A stretch of DNA of 64,000 bases from Escallonia rubra. Its lineage: Eukaryota; Streptophyta; Magnoliopsida; Escalloniales; Escalloniaceae. The stretch is taken from assembly GCA_033065855.1 (NCBI GenBank), contig JAVXUO010001034.1:124001-188000 (forward strand), read 5' to 3'. The notes below the pieces were generated by a model, which was not told where the DNA came from, searched no databases, and was given only the letters and a program-made list of their open reading frames with translations. The position numbers and the translations under genes were made by a program. Numbering within the stretch: position 1 is the first letter of the stretch; each line of letters opens with the position of its first letter. Shown here one piece after another: positions 20,965 through 64,000 of the stretch.

Positions 20965-21385
20965 GTTTACGGACGTTCGTACATCAACCTCGCGACGTCC
21001 GTCGTGTATGAACCTCCCGATGTCCGTCATGTATCAACCTCTCGATGTCTGTTCGTACATCAACCTCGCGACGTCCGTCGTGTATCAACCTCCTGACGTC
21101 CGTCGTGCATCAACCTCCCGACGTCCGTTCGTGCATCAACCTCGCGACGTCCGTCGTGCATCAACCTCCCGACGTCCGTCGTGCATCAACCTCGCGACGT
21201 CCGTCGTGTATCAACCTCCCGTCGTCCATTCGTCCATCAACCTCCCGACGTCCGTCGTGCATCAACCTCTTGACGTTCGTTCGTACATCAACCTCCCGAC
21301 GTCTGTTGTGCATCGACCTCGCGACGTCCGACGTACATCGACCTCACGACGTCTGTCGTCTATCAACCTCGTGACGTCAGTCGTC
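20965..21385. repeat. About 25-bp minisatellite with GACGTC cores
   Basis: About 17 units of the form ATCAACCTCCCGACGTCCGT, with variable spacers. Most units carry an ACGTC core and several carry the palindrome GACGTC. Confidence 0.9.
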
Positions 21386-21559
21386 CGTGACCGCACATGC
21401 TCCCGCGATGCCCATCGCCCAAAGTCGCGCGCTACCGCCGAATGACCCGTCACCGACGACCACATACCATCACTCCCGAATTTTTCATTACTACATGTTG
21501 CATTCATTATCTTGTTATGACAGGTACACTCAGCTCACATACCATCTTTGGGACACCCG

Positions 21560-22195
21560 ACGCGCGCCCGTGCGCCATCTCCGCGACGTTCGTCGCTGCG
21601 CCCGGGCGCCATCCTCATGATACGTGCCCCGGCACCAAGTATTGTCTCCGTGACGTTTGTTGCCGCACTCGTGCATTATCGTCATGATACGTGCCCACGG
21701 CACCAAGTATTGCTCCGCGACCTTCGTCGCCGCGCACCGTGTGCCATCGTCATGATACGTGCCCCGGCACCAGGTATTACCTCCGCAACATTCATCGCCG
21801 CGCCCGTGCGCCATCGTCATGATACGTGCCCCGGCACCAAGTATTGCTCCGCGACGTTCGTCGTCGCGCCCATGTGCCATAGCCGTGATACGTGCCCCGG
21901 CACCAGGTATCGTCTCTGCGACGTTCGTCACCGCGCCCGTGCACCACTTCAATGATATGTGCCCACAGCGCCAGGTATTGTCTCCGAGACGTTCGTCGCC
22001 GTGCCCGTGCGCCACTTCCATGATATGTGCCTCGGCACTAGGCATTACATCCGCGACGTTCGTCGCCGCGCCCGTACGCCACTTCCATGATACGTGCCCC
22101 GGCACTAGGTATTATCTCCACGACGTTCGTCGCCGTGCCCGTGCGCCACTTTCATGATACGTGCCCCGGCACCAGGTATTGTCTCGTGCTATAGG
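21560..22195. repeat. 67-bp tandem repeat in solo LTR B
   Basis: Units begin ATGATACGTGCCCCGGCACC; the first two start at 21617 and 21684, exactly 67 bp apart, and about nine follow in all. The sequence is very CpG-rich. Confidence 0.9.
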
Positions 22196-22229
22196 CACCG
22201 TGCCCATGCGCCACAATCATGTTACATGC

Positions 22230-22645
22230 TTCCGGGATGGGCTCACAACCTTATAGCCATCGCCGTTTCAATCACATGAGGGCTTCGGCCCTCGTACCGG
22301 GATGGGCTCATAACCTTATAGCCATCGCCGTCTCAATCACAGGGGGGCTTCGGCCCTCGTACCGGGATGGGCTCACAACTTTATAGCCATCGCCGTCTCA
22401 ATCACAGGGGGGCTTCAGCCCTCACACCGGGATGGGCTCACAACCTTATAGCCATCGCCGTCTCAATAACAAGGGGGCTTCGACCCTCGCATCGGGATGT
22501 GCTCACAACCTTATAGCCATCGCCGTCACAATCATGGGGGGCTCCTACATGAGGACCCCTCGCAGCGGGATGGACTCACAACCTTAAAGCCATCGTCGTC
22601 ACAATCATGGGGGGCTCCGGCACGAGGACCCCTCGCAACGGACTC
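22230..22645. repeat. About 66-bp tandem repeat in solo LTR B
   Basis: About six units start CGGGATGGGCTCACAACC and contain TATAGCCATCGCCGTC and a GGGGGCTTC or GGGGGCTCC segment. Confidence 0.9.
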
Positions 22646-37700: not shown

Positions 37701-40700
37701 AATATGTACAAAATCTCTATAATCTTGGTGGAAGCTGTTGGGAAGATTTGAGATCTAATACACCCCCTCAAGATGAAGGGGGTCGCGAGAGGACCTTCAG
37801 CTTGCTAGAAAGAAAACGGTGGGGGGAATATGATAAGCCTTTGGTAAAAATATCCGCAATTTGGTCATGGGTAGAGATGAACTGAACGTTCAGTTCTTTT
37901 TGACGAACCTTGTCACGAACAAAGTGAAAGTCAATCTCGATGTGCTTCATTCGAGCATGGAACACGGGATTGACAGATAGATATGTTGCACCAGTATTGT
38001 CACACCAAAGAATGAGAGATTGATGGAGGGGGAAACCAAGTTCAGTATGAAGAGAGCGGAGCCATGTGAGTTCAGAGGCACAATCGGCAAGAGCTTTATA
38101 TTCAGCCTCGATCAAAGAGCGAGCTACAGTACGTTGTTTACGAGAAGACCAAGAGATATATGGCAAAGCCCCCGGTGGATTTATGGTCGTCAACATTGCC
38201 AGCCCAATCAGCGTCAGTAAAGGCTTGTACATCCCAAAAGCGAGAACTAGTAAACATAAGACCATAATCAATTGTGCCGCAAAGATATCGAAGAATGCGT
38301 TTGACGTAACTCCAATGAGTTTCATTTGGAGAGTGCATGTATTGGTATGCCTTATTAACGGCAAAGGCAATATCAGGTCGGGTAAGGTTAAATATTGTAG
38401 GGCACCAACAACGGATCTGTAGCGTGTGGGATCAGAGAAGGGAGCATCCTCTGGCACAAATGATTTTGGAGGAGTAGAGACAGGGGTAAGGACCGGTTTG
38501 GAATGAGTCGTACTAGCTTTTGAGAGAAGATCAGTGATGTAGCGACGCTGAGATATGAACAAGCCAGTCGGAGCATAAGAAACTTCAATGCCCAAGAAAT
38601 AGTGAAGTGGACCAAGGTCTTTGATGGAGAATTCAGAGCGCATAGAGTTGATCAATGACGTTATTTGAGTAGATGAGTTCCCAGTGACAATGATGTCATC
38701 GACATAGACCAATATATATATGATAGTGCCAAAAAGATTGAGTACAAAGAGTGAGGGATCTGTCTGGGAAGGAACAAAACCTAACGAGACAAGAAAGGTG
38801 GAAAGATGATGGAACCATGCACGCGGTGCTTGTTCAAGGCCGTACATGGAGCGATGGAGTTTACAAACATGGTGAGGATGAGATGGGTCTGTGAAACCAG
38901 GGGTTTGGTGCATGTAAACCTCTTCAGTAAGAGAACCATGTAAGAAAGCGTTATTAACATCAAGTTGAGTTAAGGACCAGCCACGATTGACAGCGATGCT
39001 AAGGATAGTACGAATCGTGGTATGCTTGACAACTGGACTGAAGGTTTCCTCAAATTAAAGTCCACACCATGCTGTTGGTGGAAACCTTTAGAGACCAATC
39101 GAGCTTTATAACGCTTTAATGAACCATCAGCCCTTTTCTTCACCCGAACACCCATTTGCAACCCACAAGATTCATGTGAGGATGGTGAGGTACGAGGGAC
39201 CGAGTAACATTACGAAAGAGTGCATTAAATTATTCATTCATGGCATGGCGCCATTCAGGATGCTTTTGAGCTTGAGAGTAACAAATAGGTTCTGGGAGAG
39301 TAGTGGTTTCAGATAGGGATGCAAAGGGTCGTTTAGGTTTGGGATTCTTGTGTAAAGTCATAGGATGAGTACGAGTAGGGTTAGAGGAGGTGTTAAAGGG
39401 AGGATGGTGAGGGATGACAGAGACTGAAGGTACATGTGTGGGGGGTAAGGTGGAAGGAAGGTGAGCTGAAGTAGAAGTTTGAGAGGGGGGTGAAACAGCG
39501 GTGGGTGATGTACGTAGAGAGGATGGAAGACGAGTGGGAGCAAGAGCCCATGGTTGAGGTGGTGGTGGAGGATTACGAGGAGGAGGTGAGCCAAGAAGAG
39601 ATGAACCAGTGAACAGATAAGTAAACTCATCGAAGACGACATGGCGAGCAATATATATTTTGCGAGTCAGAAGATGAAGACATTGGTAACCTAAGCGAGT
39701 TAGACTGTAGCCAAGAAAGACACAAGGAGCAGAACTGTAGTTGATTTTATGCGCATTATAGGGGGTAAAAATGGGTAACATAGGCATCCAAAAAATTTAA
39801 GGAACTGATAATTTGGCGGAGATCAGGAAACAAGTTCAAAAGGGGACTTGTAGGTTGAAACTTTGGAGGGCATTCGATTGATTAAAAAGACAGCTGTTTC
39901 AAAAGCAAAATCCCATTAAAGTTGTGGCACCGATGCATGAGCCATAAAAGCGAGACCAGTCTCGACAATGTGACGATGATGACGCTCCACCACCCCTTGT
40001 TGTTCGTGAGTGTGGGGACATGAGCGGCGGTGAATAATGCCAATTTGAGGAAAAAAAAGTATGGAGTTTGCGATATTCACCGCCCGAATCAGTTTGGATT
40101 ACTTTGATTTTGCGCTCAAATTGGCGTTCCACCATGACTTGGAATTGCTTAAAAATAATTAAGACATCAGATTTACGAGCAATAGGATAATACCACAGAA
40201 ATTTTGAATAATCATCAAGAAATAGCACAAAATAGCGAAATCCATTCAAAGAAGAAATTGGAGCTGGTCCCTATACATCGTTGTGAATTAAATCAAGAAA
40301 ATGCGAGCTACAAGAATGGGTAACAGGCAAGGTACTCCGAGAAGCTTTTCCTAGTTGACATGAAGAACAAAGAGTCTGAAGCTTAGAGCTTGTGCATGGA
40401 AATTTATTTTCGAAGATGATGTGACGCAGGACACGAGCATGAGGATGACCAAGGCGCCAGTGCCAATCATCTACAGTAGTATGAACATCAGAAAGAGCAG
40501 TAGGCCTAGAGGAAAGAGATGATGGATGGACATCATTAAGACAGTACAAACTATTTTTACTCGGACCGCGAATAAGAGTAGCCCTCGTGACCTGATCCTT
40601 GACCAAAGAATATTTAGGATGGAATTCAAAAAAGACATTGTTGTCTTTAGTAAACTGCTGGACAGAGAGTAATGACTTGGAAAGAGAAGGAACATGGAGA

Positions 40701-43700
40701 ACATGAAAAGGGGAGCAGAATAAGTGTGAATTAGAGACTTGCCTATATATGAGAGATTTGAAGGGCTTTACCATTGCCAACATGAAGCTGATCATGGCCT
40801 TCGTATGGCTGCGTAGTGGTAAGCGAGTGCAAGTCAAGAGAGGCATGATGAGTTGCACCCGTGTCTGGAAACCACTGGAAGTCTTCAGGAAAGGTGTCAC
40901 TAGAGTGGTTGGTGTGGTAAGTAGCTGGTCTAGAAGTAGCAGAACGAGGATTTGAGGGGTTTTGGCAATAAAAACTATCATGAGATGTGGTATTGCAAAA
41001 CTTGCAATATCGTGGGCGATGGTTGAATCTACCGCCATGAGTGCCATCGCGTTTGTTACCACCACTATGAGGTTGAAAAGGCTCACTATTACGGCCTCCA
41101 CGACCACGGTTGCTACGATAAGGCCCATTGCCACGACCTCCTTGATGATGATTGTAATGGGTGCTAGGGGAATGAAAGGTAGAGTTGGGGTGCAAATTGC
41201 GGTGAGAGAGATAGGCAGAGGGCTGGGTATCGGGGATAGACGAGGTGGATGAAGAACTAATGTGAAGTTTGGTTAGATTGTCGGAATGCGAGAACTCATG
41301 ACTGAGAAGAAGGGAATGAAGTTCAGAAAATAAAATAGGCTCAGTCCTAGCACTGAGAGTAGTGACAAGATCTTTAAAATCTGGTTTCAATCCACGAAAT
41401 ACATAAACATTGAAGTCTTCAATAGAGATTGGTCTACCGGCAGAAGAGGGCTCACCAGAGATAGATTTGGCACGTTGAAGATAGGTAGAAACACTATCAT
41501 CCTTTTGATCAAGTTCATGAAGGTTTCTGTGGAGGCCAAGAATCCTTGTGTTAGATAGAGAGAGTTCAAAGATTTCTTGAGAACCTGCCATAGATCACGG
41601 CTGGTGTCGCAGCCAACAACAAGAGGGAGAATTTCCTCGGAGAGAGAAGAAAGTAACATGCTCAAGATTGCAGAGTCTTGACGGTGCCAAGGCAAAAATT
41701 CAGGATTGAGAATTGGCGTAGTCTCACCGGCGGGAACAAGGTGCTTCGGAGGAGGAAAGGTGGTGCCATCAACAAACCCAAAGTGATCTTGACTGCGAAG
41801 ATAGGGCACAAGTTGCATGCGCCAATAGAGGTAAGTTTTGGTGGTGAGTTTGAGAGAAATATAGTGATGGGCTTGAGAAAGAGTTGGAGAGGGAGAGGTG
41901 GAGTTAACTGAGGAGGAAGAGATACTGGAAGAAGCCATGTGAAAGGGAAAAAAAAGGTAATCGTTGGACAAAAGGCTCTGGTACCAACTTGGAACTAAAA
42001 CTTATGTATTGTTTTTCTCTCTCACACCCAATTGGTTGTGAGGTCTTTGCATTTAAAGAACTTACAGGATAATGAAGATAAGAATGATACAAATTTTAAA
42101 TACAAATTATGAAATGTAATCCTATCCTAACTAAACAGGATGTTAGCTAAATCTGTACAAAATCTCTATAATCTTGGTGGAAGCTGTTGAGAAGATTTGA
42201 GATCTAATACACACAGGGGCTTAGCCAGGATTTCATCCCAGGAGGTGCTAAAAATATATCGAAATTGATAAAAAAAATTATAAGTAAAATAGCACAAAAA
42301 AGGTGCATTTTTCGAAATAAAATACATTTTATTTTCAATATCAATCCATCAATTATCAATCAAATAACCTAATTAATAAAAACTATTTTATTCTTTTACT
42401 TTTTTAGTCATGTTTCATTATTGCTTTAACCTAATTTCAACCCACCATTCAACTAAATCACACATTCGATATCTCAATCCAATTGGGTCCCATCCTCCAT
42501 CAATCTTAATATCGCAATGCTAAACAATAACCATAATCAATATCTCAAGATTATCCATAATCAATGCTAAACATTATCCATAATCATTAATCAATGCTCA
42601 AGATTATCCATTCATTATGCTCAAGATTATCCATAATCCATTCCTAATTTCCTATGGCTATGAGCTATGATACTAAAAAGATAACAAACAAATTTTGGAG
42701 TTCTTGCCCACCGGAGTTCTTGGCCGCCGGTGGACTGTTGGAGACTTGGAGTGAGGACTGAACTGAAGGTTGGATCCAGATCCTGTGTCGTCGCCGACTC
42801 GCCGTCGGCGTAGATCTAGAAGACAGAGATAGCCCAGATCGTGGGCTCGCCGCCGGCCGCTTGTGTCGTGGGTTTGTGTCGGTCAGTCGGTGTCGTGCCG
42901 TCGTGGGTTTGTGGCTTCCGGAGTGAGGCGCCGGCCGCGCCGTGAGCAAGTTAGTCGGCCGTCGGTCGGGGAGAAGAGAGAGAGAGAGAGGTCGACAGGA
43001 GAGAGAGAGAGAGAGAGCCGAAGAGAAAGTGTGAAATTATGAAAAAAAAACTATATATAAATATATATTTTTTCAAAATCTGAGGGGGTACATTAGCCCC
43101 CCCTCGTACAAGCGTGGCTCCGCCCCTGAATATACAGCCTCTCTTCTAGAAATGTGCTGCTTGAGGTTTTTTTTTTTTTGGGGGGTGGTCCTTTTGACTA
43201 GCGACATCTCTATTTTGATTTTCTTGTCCATTTTTGTTATGCTTATGGATTAGGGTCCTCCAGATGGCTTTTGCTTGGTTATTTTATTCGGAACGAACTT
43301 AAAGGCGCTTATGATGTTTTGCCCACAAACCCATTGGCTTTTCTCAGTATCTCACATATAGGCGCACCTCCCTTTAATGTGCTACCCACAAACCCTATCA
43401 ACCCCACCCCCCGGCGTGCAACCAAGATTTGGAGTTTGTATGTTCCATGAATGCTCTTTTGGCCAAGACAAACGAACTATCTTGTAATGGAATCATGGTC
43501 AAGATGTGTGATAACCGAGATAACCTTTGCAAGTTAACAGTAGGGGACTGATCCTTTGTCATGTTCTTTTACAAGTATCAACTTTTGGGGATTTGCTCAA
43601 TTCCTCGGCTAGTTAATTAAACAACATAAAATGTATGGGATGATAAAGTTTTAACTTGTTTTTGGAAGTGGTATGACGAACATGGAAACTTTAGAGTTTC

Positions 43701-49700: not shown

Positions 49701-51084
49701 AATTGAGTGAGGTGAAAACAATTATGAATTAGTGATTATTCATGCAATCTACCTAGATAGTGATAGGTAGGGATGAAATTTTATAATATTACAAAACTTT
49801 TGTATAACACTTAATTTGTTTTTTGTGCTGTAGATTTATTTTACTTATCTTGTTGAAAATTTAGGTGATAATAGTCATTGTTGAGTCCTAATAAGTTAGT
49901 TTATTGAGTGTGTGTAGTATAAGAAAATCTCCGACTTGTAAGCTACGACATTTATTTGAATTTATAATTTTGTCTCTCATGACATTACATTCTCTTTTTT
50001 TTTTTTAGTTTTCTAAGATCCTATAATCTAATTAGCTCTTATAAGTTACTTTAATGGTAAGGACAAGTTTTATGACTTCTACTTACAATCGACTTTTTTC
50101 TCATTTACTGGAGTATATAATTAGGCTATACCTACGAATTCGAGTAATCAATATTCATACTAACTGTTAATAAATAGGGATAAAAAAAAGAATAGAAACA
50201 AAGAGGATGATGTTGCACAACTAAAAGGGGTAATGAAAAGGAAAAGAACGCTAAAAAAAATGCTTTAATCTTCATAAATATGCCTTTGCATTTTACATTT
50301 GTGAAATTTTATTTTAGTATTTCAAAGTGATTTTGAGGTCTTAGTAGTCAATATTAATGCCAAATTAATATGTATTTATATAGATTAGATAGAGTTCTAG
50401 AAGCTATAAAATTGGTTTTCTAATTTTATCGGATTTATAGTATTCTGGCCAATTATATCTACAAATTTTTAATAAAATAAAGAAAAGGACATCGAAACAT
50501 GTAAGATGACTCATATAAATAAAGAGGGTTAAACAAACGAATGCTAGAAAAAATTTATGTCACCTCCACTATCGACGATGCTTCCTCTGTCAGATGTTTT
50601 TATATGGTGAGATGATATAATATGAGATAATATAGATCGTCTACCTGAGCATGACAGTATGCAAACAATTGTTGCCCTTAAAACCTAAATCTTGTTTACT
50701 GCATATCCATGTAAAGCAAAATTGCAAGGCGTTTTACAGATTGTTGTGATTGGGCAGTGATACCAAAGAGAGGCTTACCCGGTGATCGACATATCTATCT
50801 GACATGTTACAGGATTCTGAAGAGCGCAATAGTATATATGCAGAGGCCATCAAATAAACAAGATGATAAGTATGACAAATATCACAAGCTGTTGTCACAC
50901 ACCTTGTGCTTGAATATTCATAGAGCTTGCCGGTACTGGAGAAGATAATCACTCCAACTTCAGCATCACACAGGATGGAAAGTTCCTTTGCCTTTTTCAA
51001 CAGCCCATTCCTTCTCTTCGAGAAAGTCACTTGCCTGTTGGTGGAGTTATCGATCCTCTTTATCGCGATCTTTCCTCTACCCAT
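26665..51084 (-). CDS. MADS-box (MIKC type, AGL17/ANR1-like) transcription factor, 7 coding exons over 24 kb
   Basis: Nuclear CArG-box-binding regulator; the clade includes AGL16, AGL17, AGL21 and ANR1, with roles in root nitrate response and flowering. Exons in transcript order: 50903-51084, 44955-45033, 37316-37377, 36618-36717, 36493-36534, 36372-36413, 26665-26817. All introns are GT-AG and in phase; 660 bp, 219 aa. The MADS domain is residues 1-60 ([20 protein letters not shown] onward), then the I region with [12 protein letters not shown]. The K domain runs about 88-155 ([29 protein letters not shown]), followed by [13 protein letters not shown]. The C-terminus ([20 protein letters not shown]) ends at TAA right after an AG/GTAAAC donor-like site, so a further short exon may exist; related proteins often end in a GLQL-type motif absent here. 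Introns 1, 2 and 6 (5.9, 7.6, 9.6 kb) are swollen by transposons. Confidence 0.92.
26820..28560. repeat. AT-rich tandem family, period about 610-630 bp, in MADS intron 6
   Basis: Corresponding text (ACAAAGCTT or CAAAACTT, then GACC(C)TAACGACCAATA-type phrases, GACCAATTAGTAA, ATAACTTGGC or ATAACTTGAC) starts near 27190, 27800 and 28430, giving two full and one partial diverged copies. A segment at about 35080-35215 is the reverse complement of about 28205-28325. No coding capacity; origin unknown. Confidence 0.6.
29407..29763 (-). pseudogene. Captured FAF (FANTASTIC FOUR-like) domain fragment
   Basis: The minus strand is open for about 118 codons to a TAG at 29407-29409. In order it reads [54 protein letters not shown] and [18 protein letters not shown], then FQLVPL. 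The PPAI..L, YYT.DGRL and FRAHR.DGRL phrases match the FAF domain of FANTASTIC FOUR / FAF-like plant proteins, linked in Arabidopsis to the shoot meristem and WUSCHEL. No start codon is in frame before the purine-rich TIR, so it is a 5'-truncated piece. The surviving frame has no internal stop, so capture was recent or the fragment is under some constraint. Family assignment is from memory of the domain. Confidence 0.7.
29780..29803. repeat. (GA)n microsatellite
   Basis: A run of about 12 GA repeats opens a purine-rich zone (29780-30180) that includes another GA run at about 29940-29962. Confidence 0.9.
30370..30421. repeat. (TA)n microsatellite
   Basis: An uninterrupted TA run directly follows the right TIR end of the long-TIR element. 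A shorter TA tract precedes its left end at about 28553-28586, consistent with insertion into a TA repeat. Confidence 0.95.
30745..32370. mobile_element. Second long-TIR (MULE-like) element in MADS intron 6
   Basis: About 30750-30920 and 32200-32370 are imperfect inverse copies of about 170 bp. Shared pieces include TCACCCAACACTCCGTACTTA / TCACCCATCACCACATACTTA-type ends, CAACACTTCATATTTCCAAA / CAGCACCTCGTATTTCCAAA-type text and a TCTGTTAGTTTTT / TCTATTAGTTTTT-type segment. The core (about 30960-31950) is C-rich on the plus strand, then (TA)n(GCGTGTGT)n and G-rich. No recognisable gene was found inside and no clear target duplication, so the ends are good to about 10 bp. Confidence 0.6.
31707..31762. 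repeat. (TA)n followed by GTGCGC/TGTG repeat
   Basis: About 16 TA units pass into alternating GCGTGCGCGTGTGTG, a purine-pyrimidine alternating tract with Z-DNA-like sequence. Confidence 0.9.
32380..36270. other. AT-rich remainder of MADS intron 6 with diverged repeats
   Basis: No coding regions are credible. About 33715-34060 and 34260-34640 are diverged direct copies (GCTCTCATAAAT..CTAACA or CCAACA, TTATACAA, TATGGTG, then ATATTATGATTTTATTTTAA-like text), about 545 bp apart. The segment 35080-35215 is inverted relative to the tandem family at 27-28.5 kb. Poly-A occurs at 34545-34561. Confidence 0.45.
37538..37762 (-). repeat. 3' LTR of the Ty1/copia element
   Basis: 225 bp; the downstream LTR in the element's own minus-strand sense. 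It lies 161 bp upstream of the acceptor of MADS exon 3. Confidence 0.93.
41987..42211 (-). repeat. 5' LTR of the Ty1/copia element
   Basis: 225 bp, 97.3% identical to the other LTR, directly followed in the sense direction by the primer-binding site. Confidence 0.93.
42214..43128. mobile_element. hAT-like non-autonomous element abutting the copia element
   Basis: The termini CAGGGGCTTAGCCAGGATTT and, inverted from the right, CAGGGGCGGAGCCACG share the CAGGGGC-GAGCC terminal type of the 18489-19823 element. The octamers AATACACA (left) and AATATACA (right) match at 7 of 8, fitting a hAT target duplication. The left end shares bases with the CACAG target duplication of the copia element, so insertion order is unclear. 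The GC-rich core (42690-42990) has no transposase; (GA)n lies at 42975-43018. Length 915 bp. Confidence 0.7.
43129..44954. other. Rest of MADS intron 2
   Basis: AT-rich intronic sequence between the hAT element and exon 2. Three short open frames of about 60 codons show no recognisable protein character. Nothing else was seen. Confidence 0.45.
45034..48366. other. MADS intron 1, exon-2-proximal part
   Basis: AT-rich. Apart from the copia-like remnant, a short GTGTAATTTTAGCGACGG segment near 45930 recalls CACTA subterminal repeats. The text at 48050-48160 recurs loosely at 49860-49970, on the other side of the Helitron. Confidence 0.4.
46440..46790 (-). mobile_element. Copia-like pol remnant in MADS intron 1
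   Basis: The minus strand shows a phrase like FYEHMF followed by a Ser/Pro/Thr-rich stretch ([12 protein letters not shown], then [11 protein letters not shown]). This resembles the region between integrase and reverse transcriptase of Ty1/copia elements. No LTRs were found around it. It is a short, old, broken fragment. Confidence 0.4.
48367..49639 (+). mobile_element. Non-autonomous Helitron in MADS intron 1
   Basis: It begins TCTAATTATATATATATG and ends GGTTAAAACTAGT. It is preceded by A (48366) and followed by T (49640), as expected for Helitron insertion between A and T. A hairpin-forming stretch CCCCGTGTGCAACGCGCGGG lies at 49609-49628, about 11 bp before the CTAGT end. The 5' phrase GAAAGCCGAAGCTGAGAGAA followed by ACGTCACC is of the type I recall from plant Helitrons. 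It has no Rep/helicase coding. Length 1273 bp. Confidence 0.8.
49641..50902. other. MADS intron 1, exon-1-proximal part
   Basis: AT-rich intronic sequence next to the donor site of exon 1. No element ends or genes were recognised. Confidence 0.4.
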
Positions 51085-51115
51085 CCCCTCCCTACCCTCT
51101 CCCGATTCTAGGTTT

Positions 51116-51216
51116 CTGCATAAAAATTGCGTAATTAAGAACGAAACAGAGAGTGTTAGCTGGATCTTCAGACGATGAACAGACCAAGAGGGAAACAGAT
51201 ACGGAGAAAAGCTTAC
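51116..51216 (-). other. Probable 5' UTR intron of the MADS-box gene
   Basis: On the minus strand AACACCAAA/GTAAGC at 51217/51216 is a good donor, and TTTTTATGCAG/AAACC at 51116/51115 a good acceptor, 31 bp upstream of the ATG (51084). The 101-bp size is typical. There are no transcript data, so this is inferred from consensus sites. Confidence 0.6.
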
Positions 51217-51290
51217 TTTGGTGTTGAGCTCGCCTCAGAGTTGGAGCTTGTGAAAAGCCAGCCTATGTTTCCAGATACAAATGAACAGCT

Positions 51291-53470: not shown

Positions 53471-54194
53471 CGCCTATCCCCGCCGGATGCTGCACACTCC
53501 AGAAAGTGGGTCGAAGCATGTTCCACGACCAAGGCAAGGTGCGCATGGAGTGGCGAAATGATGGACCAATGCAAGGTGCGTGGTAGTGTGACAAAGAGCT
53601 TGGGGCGGGACTGTATAAGCAGCGTGTGGGTACGGCGGGGTGTGTATGGTGCCGAGAGCATGGTAGTGTGACAGAGAGCCAGGGGGCACGACATTATCAA
53701 CGACGCGGTGGAGTGAGTGAGGTGCCGGGGGCATGATAGTGTGAAAGAGAGCCCAGGGGTGCGGCTATATCAGCGGCGCTGTGCATGGGCGGGACGAAAG
53801 GAGTGAGGTGCCTGGGGCAGGATAGTGTGAAAGAGAGCCTAGGGGCACAGCTGTATCAGCAACGCGGCATATGGGCGCGGCGGAGTGTTATACACGGCGC
53901 GTGGGCGTTGGCGATGGGGGTTGCGGAGACGGGCGACGAGCTTTGCGGAGATGGCGTACAGTCGGGGGCGACGTGGGTCGCGAAGACTAAGCGCGAGCGC
54001 GGGCGACAGGGGTCGTGGATACGGTGCTCGGGCAATGGGCGACGAGCGTCGCGGAGACGGCGCCCGGCTGACTGATGACGAGATTCGTGGAGACGGCGCC
54101 CGGGCGACAAGCGTGGCGGAGTTGGCTCGCGGACGCGGGGGACAAGCCTCGCGGATGATGCATTGTCCCTTGAAGAGGAGTGAATGTGCTAAAG

Positions 54195-54505
54195 GGGAGG
54201 CCAAAGGCCAACCCTTGGGGGAAGGCCAAGGTTAACCCTTAGGGGGTGGCCAGGGCCAACCCCAAGGAAAGGCCGAGGCTAACCCCAAGGGATAGGCCAA
54301 GGCTGAGGTCGAGCCCAAGGGGAAGGCCAAGGCCAACCCTTGCGGGAAGGCCAAGGCCCTCTCTTGGGGGAAGGCCAAGGCCAACCCTTGGGGGGAGGCC
54401 AAGGCCAACCCCAAGGGGAGGCCGAGGCCGAGGCCGACCTCATGGGGAAGGCCAAGGCCGAGGCCGACCCCAAGGGGAAGGCCAAGGCTAACCTCCTTGG
54501 GCAAC
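54195..54505. repeat. GGCCAAGGCCAACCC minisatellite in solo LTR C
   Basis: About 14 short degenerate units of GGGGAAGGCCAAGGCCAACC form. This is the inverted counterpart of the 20505-20920 array in copy B, and open frames across it are compositional artefacts. Confidence 0.85.
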
Positions 54506-56458: not shown

Positions 56459-59400
56459 GCAACATAATAATGGGAAGTTCACCGTTCTTCTGGTCCTTCT
56501 TGTGATTTATTTAAGTTCTTGGTCGGAAAGTTTCCGGTGGACCACATGGCATGATGGCAACCACATTTTTTGTTAGTGTTCATGGTTGACATGATGACAA
56601 GCCCTCAACTTCATTTCTGCGCGTACTAGTAATACCTGAAAACAAGGATTTGGACTGATCAACCGAATTGTAAGGATAAATTATTTCAGCCTTCGTTGCA
56701 AGAAACACTTGTAGTGAAGTTCATAAAGTCTAAGCCATCGCTAGAACCTGAAAATTCTTAAAGCGACAACATTGACAGGTATTTTATCAAGAGTTACGTC
56801 TTATACCTATTAATGAGTAGCAGATTGAAGTTGGTTTATCTTGATGATGCTTACGTCCACTCATAGGAAAAAGTTTTGCTTACCTCCATTAATGTCACCC
56901 TGGCATGACATATTGTTTACTACTGAAGCACTCCCACTCCTATCATCAGGAATACTCGCAAAAAATTAGTGGGGACATAATTAAGTCATTGAAACGATGG
57001 GTCAAAAAAAGTTGCTCGAACCGGAGCCAGAGCAAACAATTTTCTTTCTTTCTTTCTTTTTCTTTTTACACATACCATGTAAAACGGTAGTGTTAAAGTT
57101 TGGTGTCGATGCCAAAATAATGCTCAAGTAGAGGAGAAGCTCATCTTGTATGAGAACTGATCTCAATCATCATGTATATTTGTTGATGTGAAACTTTAAC
57201 TAGCACCAGCATTTACACAGCACGGAATATGAAGTGATATCCAGGCTTGATATCCAGCACGGAATATAAAGCGGACTGTAAATTTTAAAAAAGGGCAAGG
57301 TGACGACATGAAGACCACGATTTTTGGTAGGGTCTAACTCTGATACTTTGTTGAATATACTTAAAAGGAGAAAAAGCCGAACAGGTATAACAACTTATCA
57401 CAAATTTCATGTAACATTCGCAGGAGGAATTTGTAGGGAAGTGTTATGATTTGGGGAGATCCTTCACGAATCAACCCCAGTGATCATCATACAGGATTTA
57501 GCCACAACGTGCTTATGGAATCATAGCAACCTTTCATTCTTTTTAATCGTTGGGGAACGGTGTATACACTGTAATTGTCTGCAAAAGTGTCTCGCAATCG
57601 GCTGCTGCCCACGTGAAGACGATTTGTTCGACCAATGAGATTCGTTCTACCCCAAAAATAATTTCTTTGACTAAGGAGATCCCAAAATCAAGGACTCGGA
57701 CTAAATTAATCCAGCTTTATTACCTCTAAAGTACGAGCTAAGACAGGTGTCAATCATCAGCAAATCATAAACATGCAAAGTCCAAGAAAAAAGGTAGTTT
57801 GAGCTACAAACTGCATTTATCAATGAAAGTGCAACTTTGCTGAGTAATCACACCATTGAAAATGGTTTCTTTCAAGGTTCTTGATGTCTACACGGTTGCA
57901 TAAAATTTAGAGAGAGAAAGGAGACACATGAAGACCATCAAACAGGAAAAAGATATGCCTCTTTTGGAAGGGAGAGGTTTACCGTTTGAGCGCACATGCT
58001 AAACTCAGTTGCGAAGGGTTGATGTATAGGGTGGCTTTGCAAACTCTCAGTTACTGTGCATGGTTTTTACTCTTACATCTGCCTACGTGCTAGGGTTTGC
58101 TCATTATAATACAAGGTTCAATATATCATGTTAACTAGCAGATTCATTTGTACTATATATTAATCACGAGGAATGGCATAGAGCCAGGAATGTTGAGCGG
58201 GGTAGGCATTCGAAAATATATTTATGATACAACGATAAAAATATCCCTAAACTCATACCCTAATATGTTTAGTGGCTTTTTCTTTTGCAGCTAAAAGTCA
58301 ACAGGTGCAGACACAAAAAAGTATGATAAAATTATTAGACACATTTTCTAACAGCTTAAATGTTCAGGAGGTTTAATCCGTGAAGGTGAACTCATGGATT
58401 AATATAAACTCATTTTCCCTTTTTCTCAATTTGCAACTTCCCTCAAAATGACAGTACTGCCCTGTTTGGCAATGCTTGGACAGAGGAATTAGAGAGGGGC
58501 ACAATTGTTCAGAGCATCACATTTATGCCTATAGACCTAGGTTTTCGCAAAGGGGCAGGTGGGCACGTACCCATTGGTGCACCGTACTGCCTCTGTCCGT
58601 GATAACGAGACGAATTACGTGATAGAGGTCATTAAGAGCTTAATTACAAAACCAACGTATGGCAGGATTTATGCGATACTCCCCTTCCTTTTGGTTTTAC
58701 TTTTTATTTTGCAAAAATCACCCATAAAGGAAGCTAATGTCAACCCTAAAAAGTTGATGATGGATGAACACGTTCTTCAGAGGTGTTTTTTGTCTAAAAC
58801 AAATGGGAGACTTTGGCTAGATAAAGACTACTGTTTGCTAAGGAAGATGATATTTTGGTTTGACGGTCTTCCAGTATAAACTATTTAGATAGATAGCAAA
58901 AAAAGTTTCAATGCTTTGGACCCTAGTTATGCAGCACTCTCTGTACAATTAGTTAACTTAACTGCGTCCTTGCACTAGCTAGGTTCATTGAAAGATATAT
59001 AACGGCAAAAGTCATAGGAGTTTTTCACGACAAAATATTCTAACAATTTTGTACACCAACGAATATTAGTCTGTTGTCACTAAATTAAAGAGCTCTTTAG
59101 TGGCTTTTCGAGGAACAGTAAAGCCCCCACCATCAAGAGTTTCGAACTGTATTTAGGTGGCATTTGAAAGCTAGAGAAAGAAACGATGATTGGCATGGCA
59201 AGGAGTTTTAGTTTTGTTTTTCTTCAGCTTCATAAACCAGATTACAAAATGGGGCTGGTTTGAAAATTCCAATCTAAGAAAGTTTTCAGTTTTAGTTTTG
59301 GTGTGTGTGTATATATATATATATCGTGTCAACTATTGTTGAAAGCATTTTGATTCTCTTCTTTCTTTTATCTTCGTCTTTATCTTCATCTTTCATCTTC

Positions 59401-60190
59401 ATCATCTATCTTCATCTTTCATCTTCATCGTCTATCTTCATCATCAAAACTTATCACTACCGAAACGCCAACATACACTACTAACCACCATAGTCACAGA
59501 CGACCAACATCGCCAACTATCATAGTCATTGACCACCACAATCACCAACCAATATTTCACTTTATCGATTAGCGAACACATTAATCAAATCTGACGAAGT
59601 GAGCAAACCCACCAGAAACAAAAAACCCCTAACTAACAATAAAACCACTAAACTGCCACAAGTCTTCAAGTTCCCTTCGTCGATCCCCGGCCTGCATGTT
59701 GCCACTACCACCTCACCTACATTTACCACCCTAGTTATGTGCCAACTCTAATGACGGCCATGACAGCGTGGGATGTCGATGAAGGCGGTGGATTGGTTCA
59801 CGGTGGTAGCAGGGTATTCCGACCTGTTTTCTTTTATACTAAATTTATTGCCATGTGAAAGTGGTAGCCGGGTCTAAGCAAGACATACTCCAGTTTACCA
59901 GCTAGAAACTAATTTTGATCTCACGCCTTACACATGAGAGTATTCCAATTAGTAAATAGAAAAATAGCAAAAACAAAAGGTCAAAATATGCATTTTGCAT
60001 TGAACAATAAGATAAAATTTTAAGTAACAAAAGCAAAAATTAAACTAAATTTCACAGCAGTTCACACTTGAAAAAAATAACCATTATATCCATAAGTAAA
60101 AATGCATTTTAACAATCAAGACAAACCTATTAGGAGAATAAGTAAACGTTTGTCGCAATTTGCTGAAAAATAACAAAGGGAAAATAATAT
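56459..60190. other. Intergenic DNA between the TIR element and the CACTA element
   Basis: About 3.7 kb without a recognisable gene. A 106-codon frame (58559-58879) contains a hydrophobic stretch (AILPFLLVLLFIL) but matches nothing I know. (TG)n(TA)n lies at 59300-59325, followed by a pyrimidine-rich TCTTCATC repeat to about 59445. Confidence 0.45.
59340..59445. repeat. TCTTCATC-type pyrimidine-rich simple repeat
   Basis: Degenerate repeats of ATCTTCATCTTTC cover about 100 bp. Confidence 0.8.
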
Positions 60191-60219
60191 ATTTCACTAC
60201 AAGAAAATTAGGATTTTGC

Positions 60220-60400
60220 GACGGACTTTTAGCGACGGAAGTAATTCTGTCGCTAAAACGTCTTTCAGCGACGGATAAACCCGTTTGTAAAATGTCCGTC
60301 GTTAAAACATTATAAGCGACAGAAAGTTACCGTCGCTAAAAATTCCGTCGTTAAATACATCTTTTGTCTACGGGCTTTTAGTGACAGTGTCATTTTGTCG
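60220..60400. repeat. Left subterminal GCGACGG repeat array of the CACTA element
   Basis: At least eight copies of GCGACGG, CCGTCGC or close variants such as GTCGCTAAAA lie in 180 bp, in both orientations. Such arrays bind the CACTA-encoded TNPA-type protein in characterised elements. Confidence 0.85.
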
Positions 60401-61757
60401 CTAAAAGTCCTTACATAAAACACCTTCGTCTTTTTTTCACTCTCCCCGTTTCTCTCTGTCTCTCACTCTCACCCACTCACCGGCGATATTGGCGTTCTCC
60501 CTCTCCGACGACCCACCTCCGGCGACATCACCACCCCCCCTCCCCTGACGTCGTGCCCCTCCATATCCGCGTGCCACCAACGCTGCGCCACCAATTCCCT
60601 CCACTGCCGCGCCACCAAGGCCCTTCATTGCCGCCGCGCCACCAACACTTCCGCCGCCGCACCACCTCTCTGTATGTCCATTTGCCCTAATTTGCTTTAA
60701 TGCATGTTTAAGCGCCATTTGCCCTAATTTTCTTCAGTTCTGATTTATGTCAATTTGCCCTAATTGGAACTTGCCCTAATTTGTTTATGGAATTATGATA
60801 TGTTTCTTATAATTTCAATTATTTTTAATTGCTGATGGAATTGATTTTGTAACTGATGGAATTAGGTTGTTTAATTGCTGATGGAATTGAGGGAAAAGGG
60901 GTGTGTATTGAGTGTTTGTGTGTGTGTTTTAGGAGTGTACATGGTGTGTGTTTAAGTGAGTGTGTGTGGAAGTAGTAGCAGTGGTGTTGTGTGTGGTGTG
61001 TAATGTGCTGCAGCAGTGGTTTGGCATGTGTTTTAAGGGCTGCAGCGTGGGGGTGGAGGGGGTGGGGATGGGTTATGGTGTGTGTTTTACAGGCTGCAAT
61101 AAGGGCCGGAGGTGTATGTCTTAGGGACTGCAGCAGGTGTGTATGGGTGTGCAAACAGTGTGCATGAGTGTGTGTATTTGTGCAGCTGTTTTGAGTGTAT
61201 GTGGGTGTAATGAGTGCTTGTCTGTGTGAGTTTAGTGAGTGAGTGAATGGAGGGAAATGGGTGTAGCTTATGACGTGTCGGGTGTGATTGCTGTGAGGTA
61301 TGGAGTAGAAACAAATTCTATACCTCATTGACAATAACATCGACCTTAATAGGGGAAAATAGACTCACCACGAGAACAAAAGTAAGTTACTATCTTATAG
61401 TGAATATGAAACCGACCCCAAACCTAGAATCCACAGATGCGTTTCACTATTTTTCAAGCACATGGAAGAGCGAGCACACAGTAGAGTCACATGGCGATGT
61501 GTTCAGCCTGATTGAGGGAGCACATTGCCATAGATGGGCTATGCACATCCAACAGGGGTGAGTTGCGCCAAGTTGATGGGGGTAGGCCAAGGTCGCTGTA
61601 AACCAAGATAACATAACCTGGAGACAAGTAATGAGAAAGTACTTGATTTTCAGGAACTTGCCGAAAAAGATCAGATGACGAAATATGTAGACCAAAATGT
61701 TTATGTAGCCGGTCCAACTAGTTTGCAGCCTTGATCTTCTGAAACGAACCAGATTAA

Positions 61758-61849
61758 AAGCTTTTACCCGCTGGAGCATAGCACTAGTTTATGGAGGGGT
61801 TGGAAGCTTTTACTCGCCGGAGCATTGCACTAGTTTATGTTTAAGGGGG
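61758..61849. repeat. 46-bp tandem duplication inside the CACTA element
   Basis: AAGCTTTTACCCGCTGGAGC starts at 61758 and a near copy with the same continuation starts at 61804. Confidence 0.8.
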
Positions 61850-62399
61850 CAGCAAAAGTTCTCGCTAATTAGGAGGTAGTGATGGCTAGATTTGGCCCTT
61901 TGTCGCTAAAAGGTTTAGAAGTGTCGCTAATATCCCTTTTAATGACAAAGGACGCAAATTTAGTAAAAAATGGTGCAAGCTTATTTGAAATAATTGATAA
62001 TAATAGCCGATAAATATTGAATATTCATCCTGCTTTCATTTTATTGACATAATATTCCTGCGACACCACCCCACTTGATAGATCACAACAAATCCTAACT
62101 ATATACTACACCACAACGGCCATAGCTAAGCTCCTTAGTGTCACCACAACGGCTTTGTTACTACTTTTGCTTTTGTCGCAACACTAACAAGACAAGCCAT
62201 TAATCATTTGCACCAACATATTTTTTCCATTCACAAGGATTCGAGCAGTATTTTTTTCATTATGAAACAATTTTTCCATCTTCACGCCATAAAAAGCGTC
62301 CGAGTATACTTTCCTGGAGACTAGTAAAGTTTACTGTGTTGCACATGAAATAGTGGTTCTTGCAAGCATGAAAGATTAATCTTAAAAAATAAAGCAATG

Positions 62400-62500
62400 T
62401 CTTCGGACGTGTCCGGAGGTTTCGGACACTTGTCGGTAGGCGTCGGACACGTGTCCAGAGGTGTCGGACACATGTGATAGGCGTCGGACACGTGTCTAAC
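62400..62500. repeat. Tandem GTCGGACACGTGTC palindromes upstream of the B3 gene
   Basis: Five variants of GTCGGACACGTGTCC lie within 100 bp. Two contain the perfect G-box core CACGTG within ACACGTGT, and the others are one base off. They lie about 420-520 bp upstream of the B3 start codon. Confidence 0.85.
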
Positions 62501-62918
62501 GAGCTTAATTAGTTTTAATTAACCCTAAGAACCCAATGAATATCAAATTAGCTGTAACTACCCCAAGTTAGCCCTAATTAGCAAATCTTTGAACTTTGGT
62601 GGTTTTTTTTTTGTCTTCGTTGAGATCCAGTGATTGGATTTGCACTAGGGTTAGGTTTCATTCAGTGATTGGTTTGAGATTTTTGGGGTGTTATTTGTAA
62701 TATGTGAGTGAGGTTCAACAGTATAGGTGGCTATTTGGGTGGTGAAATGATGATGTGCGTAGTTGAGATTTATGTGGTAGTCATTTTAGCTACAACTCAC
62801 TGTGGATCTATTTTTTTAGCATCACTTTAACATAATTTGATAGATTTAATTCAGCTATGAAATTGATGCTCATCGATTGAATAATCCTCGATTGGTTTTT
62901 CATGTTAAAGTAGGTTAA

Positions 62919-63343
62919 ATGGCTTCTGCTTCGGTGAACAGGGACGTTTCAGTCAGCAGGCACTTCTTTAAGGTCATGATGCCTGGTTTTCATACAGAAC
63001 TTGTATGTCATCCCGATTTCTCTGTGTTTTCATGTGTGTTAAAAGTTTTATCTTTGGTTAAAAACTTACATGTCTTACTGTATTATGAATATGTTAGGCC
63101 ATACTGGTAACATTTTGGAGATTGCTTACCACATTGAGATTTGAAGCAACTTTAACCAGCCGCAAGGAGTCATGGCTTGTTAAATTGAAGAAGAAGGTTG
63201 GCCAAGAGGTTCTTTGCTTCGAAGAGGGTTGGAACGAATTCGTGCAACAACATGACCTCCATCTAGGAGACTTTGTAATCTTTCAACACATGGGGCAAAT
63301 GCGTTTTCAAGTGCTGGTGTTTGATCAAAGCACTTGTGAATAA
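62919..63343 (+). CDS. Short B3-domain (REM-like) protein gene inside the CACTA element
   Basis: A two-exon model, 62919-63002 and 63098-63343, joined by a 95-bp GT-AG intron in phase 0, encodes 109 aa without a break. The whole protein is one plant B3 DNA-binding domain. It starts with SRHFFKVMMPGFHTEL (about 13-28) and continues with FEATLTSRKESWLVKL, then FEEGWNEFVQQHDLHLGDFV and a final strand FQVLVFDQSTCE. The FFK start, W-VKL, GW-FV--H-L--GDF and VFD-S-CE are the standard B3/REM signposts. REM proteins usually have further domains, so this is either a trimmed copy or a minimal single-domain protein. The in-frame splice and lack of stops suggest recent capture or selection. The acceptor at 63097 was chosen because it alone keeps the frame and supplies the expected LAI-VTFW segment; it is untested. 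Confidence 0.75.
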
Positions 63344-63639
63344 CCTTTCCCCCAATGTTGAACTCTGAGGCGTAATTAGACAATATTTTAAATTAATCGC
63401 ATCGGATATGTACATTTTGAACAATTTTGTATTATTTGAACATTGATTATTTGTTTGATAATTTTAGGTTGTTAATTGTGATTATTGATCGATGATTTGT
63501 TAATCGATGATTTTAGATTGTTAATCGTGCATTTGATATATTGAGATTGCTGACGGAGGATAGGACCCAATTGGTTTGAATTTTTTATTACAGGTTTGGG
63601 CATTAAAAAATTAAAAAAATATTTAAAAATGACTTTAAC

Positions 63640-63930
63640 ATTTAGCGACGGATTAATTCTGTCGCTAAAAATTTTATCCCGTCGCTAATTTCGTAAAAAA
63701 GAAAATAAATTAAAGTATGTAAAACAGAATTAGCGATGGATATTCCGTCGCTAATTTAGAAATAAATCCGTCGCCAAACGTTCTATATTAGACGACGGAT
63801 TTTATAATTCCGTCGCAAAACTTTTAGTAACGGCCTTTTAATCGAAGGACTTTTAACGACGGTAATTCCGTCGCTAAAAGTTTTAGCGACGGAATCTAGG
63901 CTTTTAGCGACGGATTTTCCTGTCGCTAAA
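63640..63930. repeat. Right subterminal GCGACGG repeat array of the CACTA element
   Basis: About ten copies of TTTAGCGACGG or its inverse lie within 290 bp, mirroring the left array. Confidence 0.85.
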
Positions 63931-64000
63931 GGCCTTATTTCTTGTAGTGTTTCTTTTTATATATCTTTATATATATCAACTGCTGACAACTTAAGCCATT

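Follow-up and report, generated by a model that had tools for sequence, protein, structure and literature searches.

We analysed a 64,000-nucleotide stretch of the Escallonia rubra genome (contig JAVXUO010001034.1, positions 124,001 to 188,000; hereafter the window), in which a CACTA transposon of 3,755 bp at positions 60195–63949 carries a small gene for a protein with a B3 DNA-binding domain. An original prediction, made from the letters of the window, took it for a single element that had captured a gene and kept it unusually intact. Copies elsewhere in the genome showed instead that the element in the window is one decayed member of a family with many copies, and that this Pack-type CACTA family carries a REM-type B3 gene as a regular part of its right end. 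Our preferred explanation, to which we give a probability of roughly 0.5, is that a non-autonomous Pack-type CACTA family captured a REM-type B3 gene in its right end, where the gene has a putative role in the spread of the family.

A B3 gene in the right ends of a CACTA family

The genome assembly searched comprises 566 Mb in 3,222 contigs. With the B3 protein as query, the best 150 of 1,921 first-look candidates, window included, were scored and showed 84–99% identity; the header of this result gives 175 matches. Two DNA queries, the non-coding 3′ flank and the right array, yielded 1,920 and 2,139 candidates, respectively, with 40 scored for each, nearly full length and at 94–100% and 93–100% identity. 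These counts are lower bounds from samples picked by similarity to the window copy, and place the family at no fewer than 150 and possibly about two thousand copies. Matches to the Pfam B3 profile (PF02362) in frames of 88 aa, at ~49–50 bits, marked many dispersed exon-2 places that were mostly missing from the first list. Two of these (L109 and L110) are 94% identical to the window copy at the DNA level, so the family is larger than that list shows.

We retrieved 100 loci (L009–L108), 20 of ~10 kb, 20 of ≤1.9 kb and 60 others that were mostly short. The final alignment of the B3 region contains 100 rows, the window and 99 of the 100 copy loci (L095 was unmatched). Both terminal inverted repeats (TIRs) were located in 16 of the 20 10-kb loci, delimiting elements of 3.5–7.5 kb with identical 3-bp duplications in all 16; the four loci lacking a TIR pair (L009, L019, L021 and L025) were left out of the element comparison. 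A further complete element, L089, measures 3.4 kb and has TCT/TCT flanks, so that identical 3-bp duplications border 17 of 17 TIR-bounded copies outside the window. Several of these 17 have a one-base variant at the start of the left TIR. All 17 elements counted for array units contain 10–15 in the left array and 11–13 in the right.

Comparison of 17 complete elements, the window element and 16 others, revealed one right end joined to many left halves. Over the last 1.2 kb, pairwise alignment coverage is at least 0.81, with a median of 0.99. The first 1.2 kb of the same elements fall into seven types under a 50% rule, and every type has a CACTA-type end and an array of its own. The shared cassette, at 62723–63949 on the forward strand of the window, consists of the B3 gene, the right array and, in most copies, up to ~200 bp of 5′ flank; sharing begins further left in several copies and up to ~120 bp further right in others.

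The association does not depend on a B3 query. We searched with 310 bp of the right array, excluding B3, and considered 39 right ends, those closest to the window copy in DNA sequence and not drawn at random from all ends. B3 is present, in whole or in part, at 38 of them: 20 adjoin a known B3 place, and 18 of the 19 others, once retrieved, contain it at least partly. Two ends deviate, L095 without B3 and L099 with only part of exon 2. Because a query without B3 recovers B3, the gene belongs to the right end and is no artefact of the B3 search. The original prediction had named the lack of the B3 region in all other copies as a result that would speak against it; the copies show the reverse. 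In one 7.5-kb member (L027, 1821–9310), the B3 gene and its 5′ flank are separated by a ~3-kb stretch with a GC content of 61%, against 37% in the rest of the locus.

Six-frame Pfam scans detected no transposase (PF02992) in the window element, in L020, in L026 or in the scanned portions of L014 and L027, which lie outside their B3 regions; the family is therefore a non-autonomous member of the CACTA (En/Spm) superfamily. In the genome as a whole, the best 150 of 2,228 PF02992 candidates were scored, all above the cut-off. By-eye comparison of the matches listed found 16 contigs with both PF02992 and B3 places, and, by coordinates, none of the transposases listed lies inside a B3 element. In the two cases of closest proximity the transposase is still outside the element: on C2450, it is ~11 kb upstream and the B3 element, L089, measures 3.4 kb; on C161, it lies ~4 kb past the right-end side of the B3 element, judged by strand and coordinates only. 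Since the genome holds many CACTA transposase genes and the element parts scanned hold none, the family is most likely moved in trans.

The B3 gene in the window copy, the family and the host

The window element has the anatomy that the original prediction assigned to it. The left TIR (CACTACAAGAAA, 60195–60206) and right TIR (TTTCTTGTAGTG, 63938–63949), both given on the forward strand, are flanked by a TTT target site duplication (60192–60194 and 63950–63952), for which the chance of a 3-bp flank match is 0.022. GCGACGG-type arrays occupy both ends. Counting as a unit any TTAGCGACGG with at most two mismatches, we found 10 units in the left end (60195–60420; 300 shuffles, mean 0.3, maximum 2) and 13 in the right end (63630–63949; 300 shuffles, mean 0.5, maximum 4). 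The left array spans 60213–60404, with its 10 units in both orientations, and the right array spans 63638–63933. The CACTA TIRs, the 3-bp duplication and the subterminal arrays with units in both orientations agree with the CACTA (En/Spm) superfamily.

The predicted gene structure also stands. Exon 1 (62919–63002, forward strand, 28 codons, with an in-frame stop immediately before its ATG) and exon 2 (63098–63343) splice across a 95-nt GT-AG intron (63003–63097) into an open frame of 109 aa. The other copies support this splice. The ATG bases are present in 99–100 of the 100 alignment rows, the donor G in 100 of 100 and its T in 99 of 100, the acceptor A in 97 of 98 and its G in 96 of 99, rows gapped at a position being left uncounted there. 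B3 is the sole Pfam family above the cut-off in a six-frame scan of the window element. Frame length alone is no evidence, because an 81-codon run was reached in 216 of 1,000 shuffles.

By contrast, the description of the window gene as unbroken, with a whole domain, has to be withdrawn. Its protein covers positions 33–100 of the 101 in PF02362 (45.0 bits); leaving out exon 1 raises the score marginally, to 45.4 bits. The first 50 residues gave no profile match, while three control B3 domains matched from position 1. In an intact copy, too, the first 54 residues score nothing when searched alone, so we attribute the unrecognised N terminus to decay of the window copy combined with low power. 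The window copy departs from the copy majority at several residues, stops at codon 110 and, through a CCG to CTG substitution, lacks the IP-motif proline. It is a decayed family member and probably not the important copy.

In three other copy types the protein covers positions 1–100 of the profile, at 48–50 bits and above the curated cut-off. Intact copies encode 113–115 aa and stop at the domain end, and in many copies the frame continues past the window stop, at most to 63361 in window coordinates. As copy proteins match B3 over 1–100 and end where the domain ends, exon 1 and the splice belong to the domain. Two divergent copies found by a B3-profile search (L111 and L112; 87–90% DNA identity) keep the exon pattern, with one damaged splice site each.

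The host-type character of the gene holds as well. No relative of the window protein was found in viral or prokaryote collections, and viral contigs gave no match to the TIR pattern. Among B3 exons of the same genome, the recognisable B3 part starts at the IP motif in three of four; element exon 2 starts at the same point, which fits a shared intron position. Of the four host exons read, L116 does not align to the element protein, and the three REM-type exons L113, L114 and L115 are 36–42% identical to it, with the frame still open at the end of the piece read. Clusters of host REM-type B3 exons on contigs C1471, C2145 and C1869 are candidate donor relatives. From the exon pattern we infer capture as genomic DNA with the intron kept.

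Probable weak selection on the B3 frame and a possible role in spread

Our proposed explanation would run as follows. A host REM gene would have been captured as genomic DNA, intron included, beside a right end. The chimeric right end would then have recombined with different left ends, probably via neighbouring copies as in Pack-CACTA elements, and CACTA transposases encoded elsewhere in the genome would mobilise the elements in trans. The B3 frame would be weakly selected in source copies and decay neutrally after insertion. The leading step, which is also the least certain, is that source copies produce a B3 protein of 113–115 aa with a bearing on spread; such a role is possible, and the protein might for example aid the expression or accessibility of elements.

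We took as neutral expectation a ratio of nonsynonymous (N) to synonymous (S) polymorphism per site (pN/pS) of ~0.76, that is, an N:S of 3.01 from non-coding changes over 261 N : 66 S sites. Dropping copies with exon lengths that are not multiples of three reduced the 100 rows to 86 and the 57 copies ranked by DNA similarity to 45. In these 45 frame-kept copies, pN/pS is 0.51 overall (bootstrap 0.31–0.87) and 0.41 in exon 2 (0.23–0.77). Across the 86 mixed rows, variants present in at least three copies number 31 N : 19 S (P = 0.029) and those in at least five copies 13 N : 11 S (P = 0.021).

Copies ranked by protein similarity gave pN/pS values of 0.41 overall and 0.31 in exon 2, with 53 of 61 frames open; these counts omit the frameshifted L011, L027 and L047 and, in one later count, L076. 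Such estimates are biased because the copies were picked by protein similarity. We therefore discarded the strong constraint and intactness first read from them as overstated, the DNA-ranked copies giving 36 of 57 frames open and 0.41 for exon 2.

Two further comparisons, both of protein-ranked copies, point to constraint. In exon 2, diversity at codon positions 1, 2 and 3 is 0.030, 0.015 and 0.041 (41 rows). Deeper divergence was compared in 11 pairs among nine chosen sequences, the deep copies having been found by the B3 profile and hence being protein-ranked. The nine pairs with L111 or L112 have pN/pS values of 0.37–0.80, at most 0.60 in seven and 0.37–0.45 in six, the last at intron distances of 0.09–0.15; two further pairs with L109 gave 0.34 and 0.40. 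Weak constraint in multiplying copies, followed by free decay, is probable.

A substantial possibility, somewhat short of even odds, is that B3 is a pure passenger, hitch-hiking beside an efficient right end, with open frames marking young copies and a protein useless to the element. Several results weigh in this direction and against a role in spread. In the DNA-ranked copies, singletons look neutral (76 N : 25 S, with 9 stops), and variants in at least three copies (13 N : 8 S, P = 0.13) or at least five (8 N : 4 S, P = 0.35) do not depart significantly from neutrality; nor do variant counts in the protein-ranked copies (P = 0.07–0.18). Exon 1 has a pN/pS of 1.11 (0.50–2.79) in the 45 DNA-ranked copies, and in the 41 protein-ranked rows codon position 2 is its most variable position, not its least. 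The comparison of dN/dS across copies proposed in the original prediction gave a divided answer, with point estimates below neutrality and intervals, for the whole frame and exon 2, that just include 0.76.

Many frames are also broken. Counting in-frame deletions as open, the frame is open in 36 of the 57 DNA-ranked copies and in only 16 of 31 right-array-ranked copies, 15 being broken; these 31 are the copies among the 39 right ends with B3 sequence from which frame status was taken. The host REM-type clusters offer candidate relatives of the parental gene, but no donor emerged from the host exons read, the three that align being only 36–42% identical. Pack-type captures are moreover usually non-functional, according to the text consulted from PMC13317346. 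Against the passenger reading stand the exon-2 pN/pS of the DNA-ranked copies, the low values in six of the nine deeper pairs, the codon-position pattern of exon 2 and the retention of B3 with all seven left types.

A stronger form of our explanation, which we regard as doubtful, is that a host REM-type B3 protein has turned into a putative trans-acting DNA-binding protein, encoded by transposase-less elements and selected in their source copies. If so, B3 would recognise or de-repress the family, and any left half gaining the right cassette would gain mobility.

Less probable again is that the B3 protein acts as a sequence-specific helper of its own family, binding the arrays or other element sequence by analogy with VANC or TnpA. 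TnpA of En/Spm is a sequence-specific helper that binds its own element. VANDALs, which encode VANC, are Mutator-like, and to our knowledge VANC is not a B3 protein. The element has no other recognised gene than this DNA-binding one, which accompanies the right array, at least in part, at 38 of 39 right ends, and VANC proteins, in the portion of PMC10398659 consulted, bind tandem repeats in the non-coding sequence of the elements that encode them. Yet the array core CGACGG/CCGTCG is absent from the B3 5′ flank (62723–62918), and four B3 target words occur 1–3 times each in the element, against 12–48 in the window, with none in the arrays.

That one host gene fragment was captured once in the ordinary way, its frame staying intact by luck, would suit the element-level anatomy in the window taken alone, but is highly improbable and was ruled out by the genome copy search, which scored at least 150 places and found the right cassette common to all 17 complete elements compared.

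Related systems and other features of the window

Among the systems compared, the closest fit is with Pack-CACTA elements and the chimeric-end model of capture described for them. The window element is bounded by TIRs and a target site duplication, is transposase-free and contains host-type gene sequence. Pack-CACTA and Pack-TYPE elements share these features, and capture at chimeric ends, as modelled for them, would agree with the variety of left halves seen here (PMC8903248 and PMC13317346, both consulted in part). The Escallonia family, of at least 150 copies, differs in that a single gene is fixed in one terminus and that its splice sites and frame are conserved family-wide.

Repeated carriage of a host-type domain is known from Ulp1-carrying MULEs (Kaonashi) and grapevine Cactavine CACTAs; in the excerpts consulted, grapevine CACTAs and MULEs both carry Ulp1 (PMC2528002, PMC13317346). 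There the domain is a protease, whereas here it is a single-domain DNA-binding gene in elements without a transposase. The soybean CACTA element Tgm-Express1 also carries host exons and introns that are still spliced, but holds fragments of five genes rather than one small gene family-wide, in the part of PMC1947982 consulted. In Chenopodium, CACTAs contain short pieces of AP2 and Neprosin (PMC8978399, in part). VANDAL/VANC anti-silencing resembles the present case in its element-encoded DNA-binding protein (PMC10398659, the same portion), which here is predicted from sequence. Among host genes, the REM-type genes At1g16640 (structure 1yel) and VRN1 belong to the same B3 family as the element gene, and the At1g16640 protein, like the element protein, ends at the domain end; unlike host REM-type genes, the element gene is mobile and high-copy.

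No account of a CACTA family with a B3 gene as a regular component was found in the portions of open-licence PMC text covered, and two papers naming both do not bear on it. In the texts compared, what plant transposons capture is mostly described as gene fragments, while here one element end contains, as a fixed part, a DNA-binding gene that is complete and spliced and has been combined with several left halves. This raises the questions of whether captured regulators help transposons to spread, and whether B3 copies in such numbers act on the targets of host REM proteins or give rise to small RNAs directed against host REM genes.

Two further features lie inside the window element. A weak array-like patch at 61899–61972 is a possible fossil of an element end; its score was reached by 1–2 of 400 shuffles against the right end and by 10–22 of 400 against the left end, and was equalled in 1 of 150 windows outside the element. 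As a fossil of the capture junction it is only suggestive. A 21-bp minisatellite of TCGGACACGTGTC type occupies 62407–62496, and TCGGACACGTGTC-rich units recur in other copies, for example L013, L014, L022, L025 and L028. An Rfam scan of 59000–64000 gave nothing at the gathering threshold.

Elsewhere in the window, the remains of a Copia-type long terminal repeat retrotransposon extend over several frames at 37771–42001 on the reverse strand (RVT_2, SH3-like and gag-pre-integrase domains), with the integrase core and gag below the cut-off. A 166-aa open frame at 50737–51234, also on the reverse strand, encodes a complete MADS-box (SRF-TF, E = 1.8e-27) and is a possible host gene ~9 kb to the left of the element. 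Three tandem arrays with units of ~25, 67 and 65 bp form a block of 49–56% GC at 20974–22641, and a further tandem array, with AAGGCCAAGGCCAACCC-type units, lies at 54192–54493.

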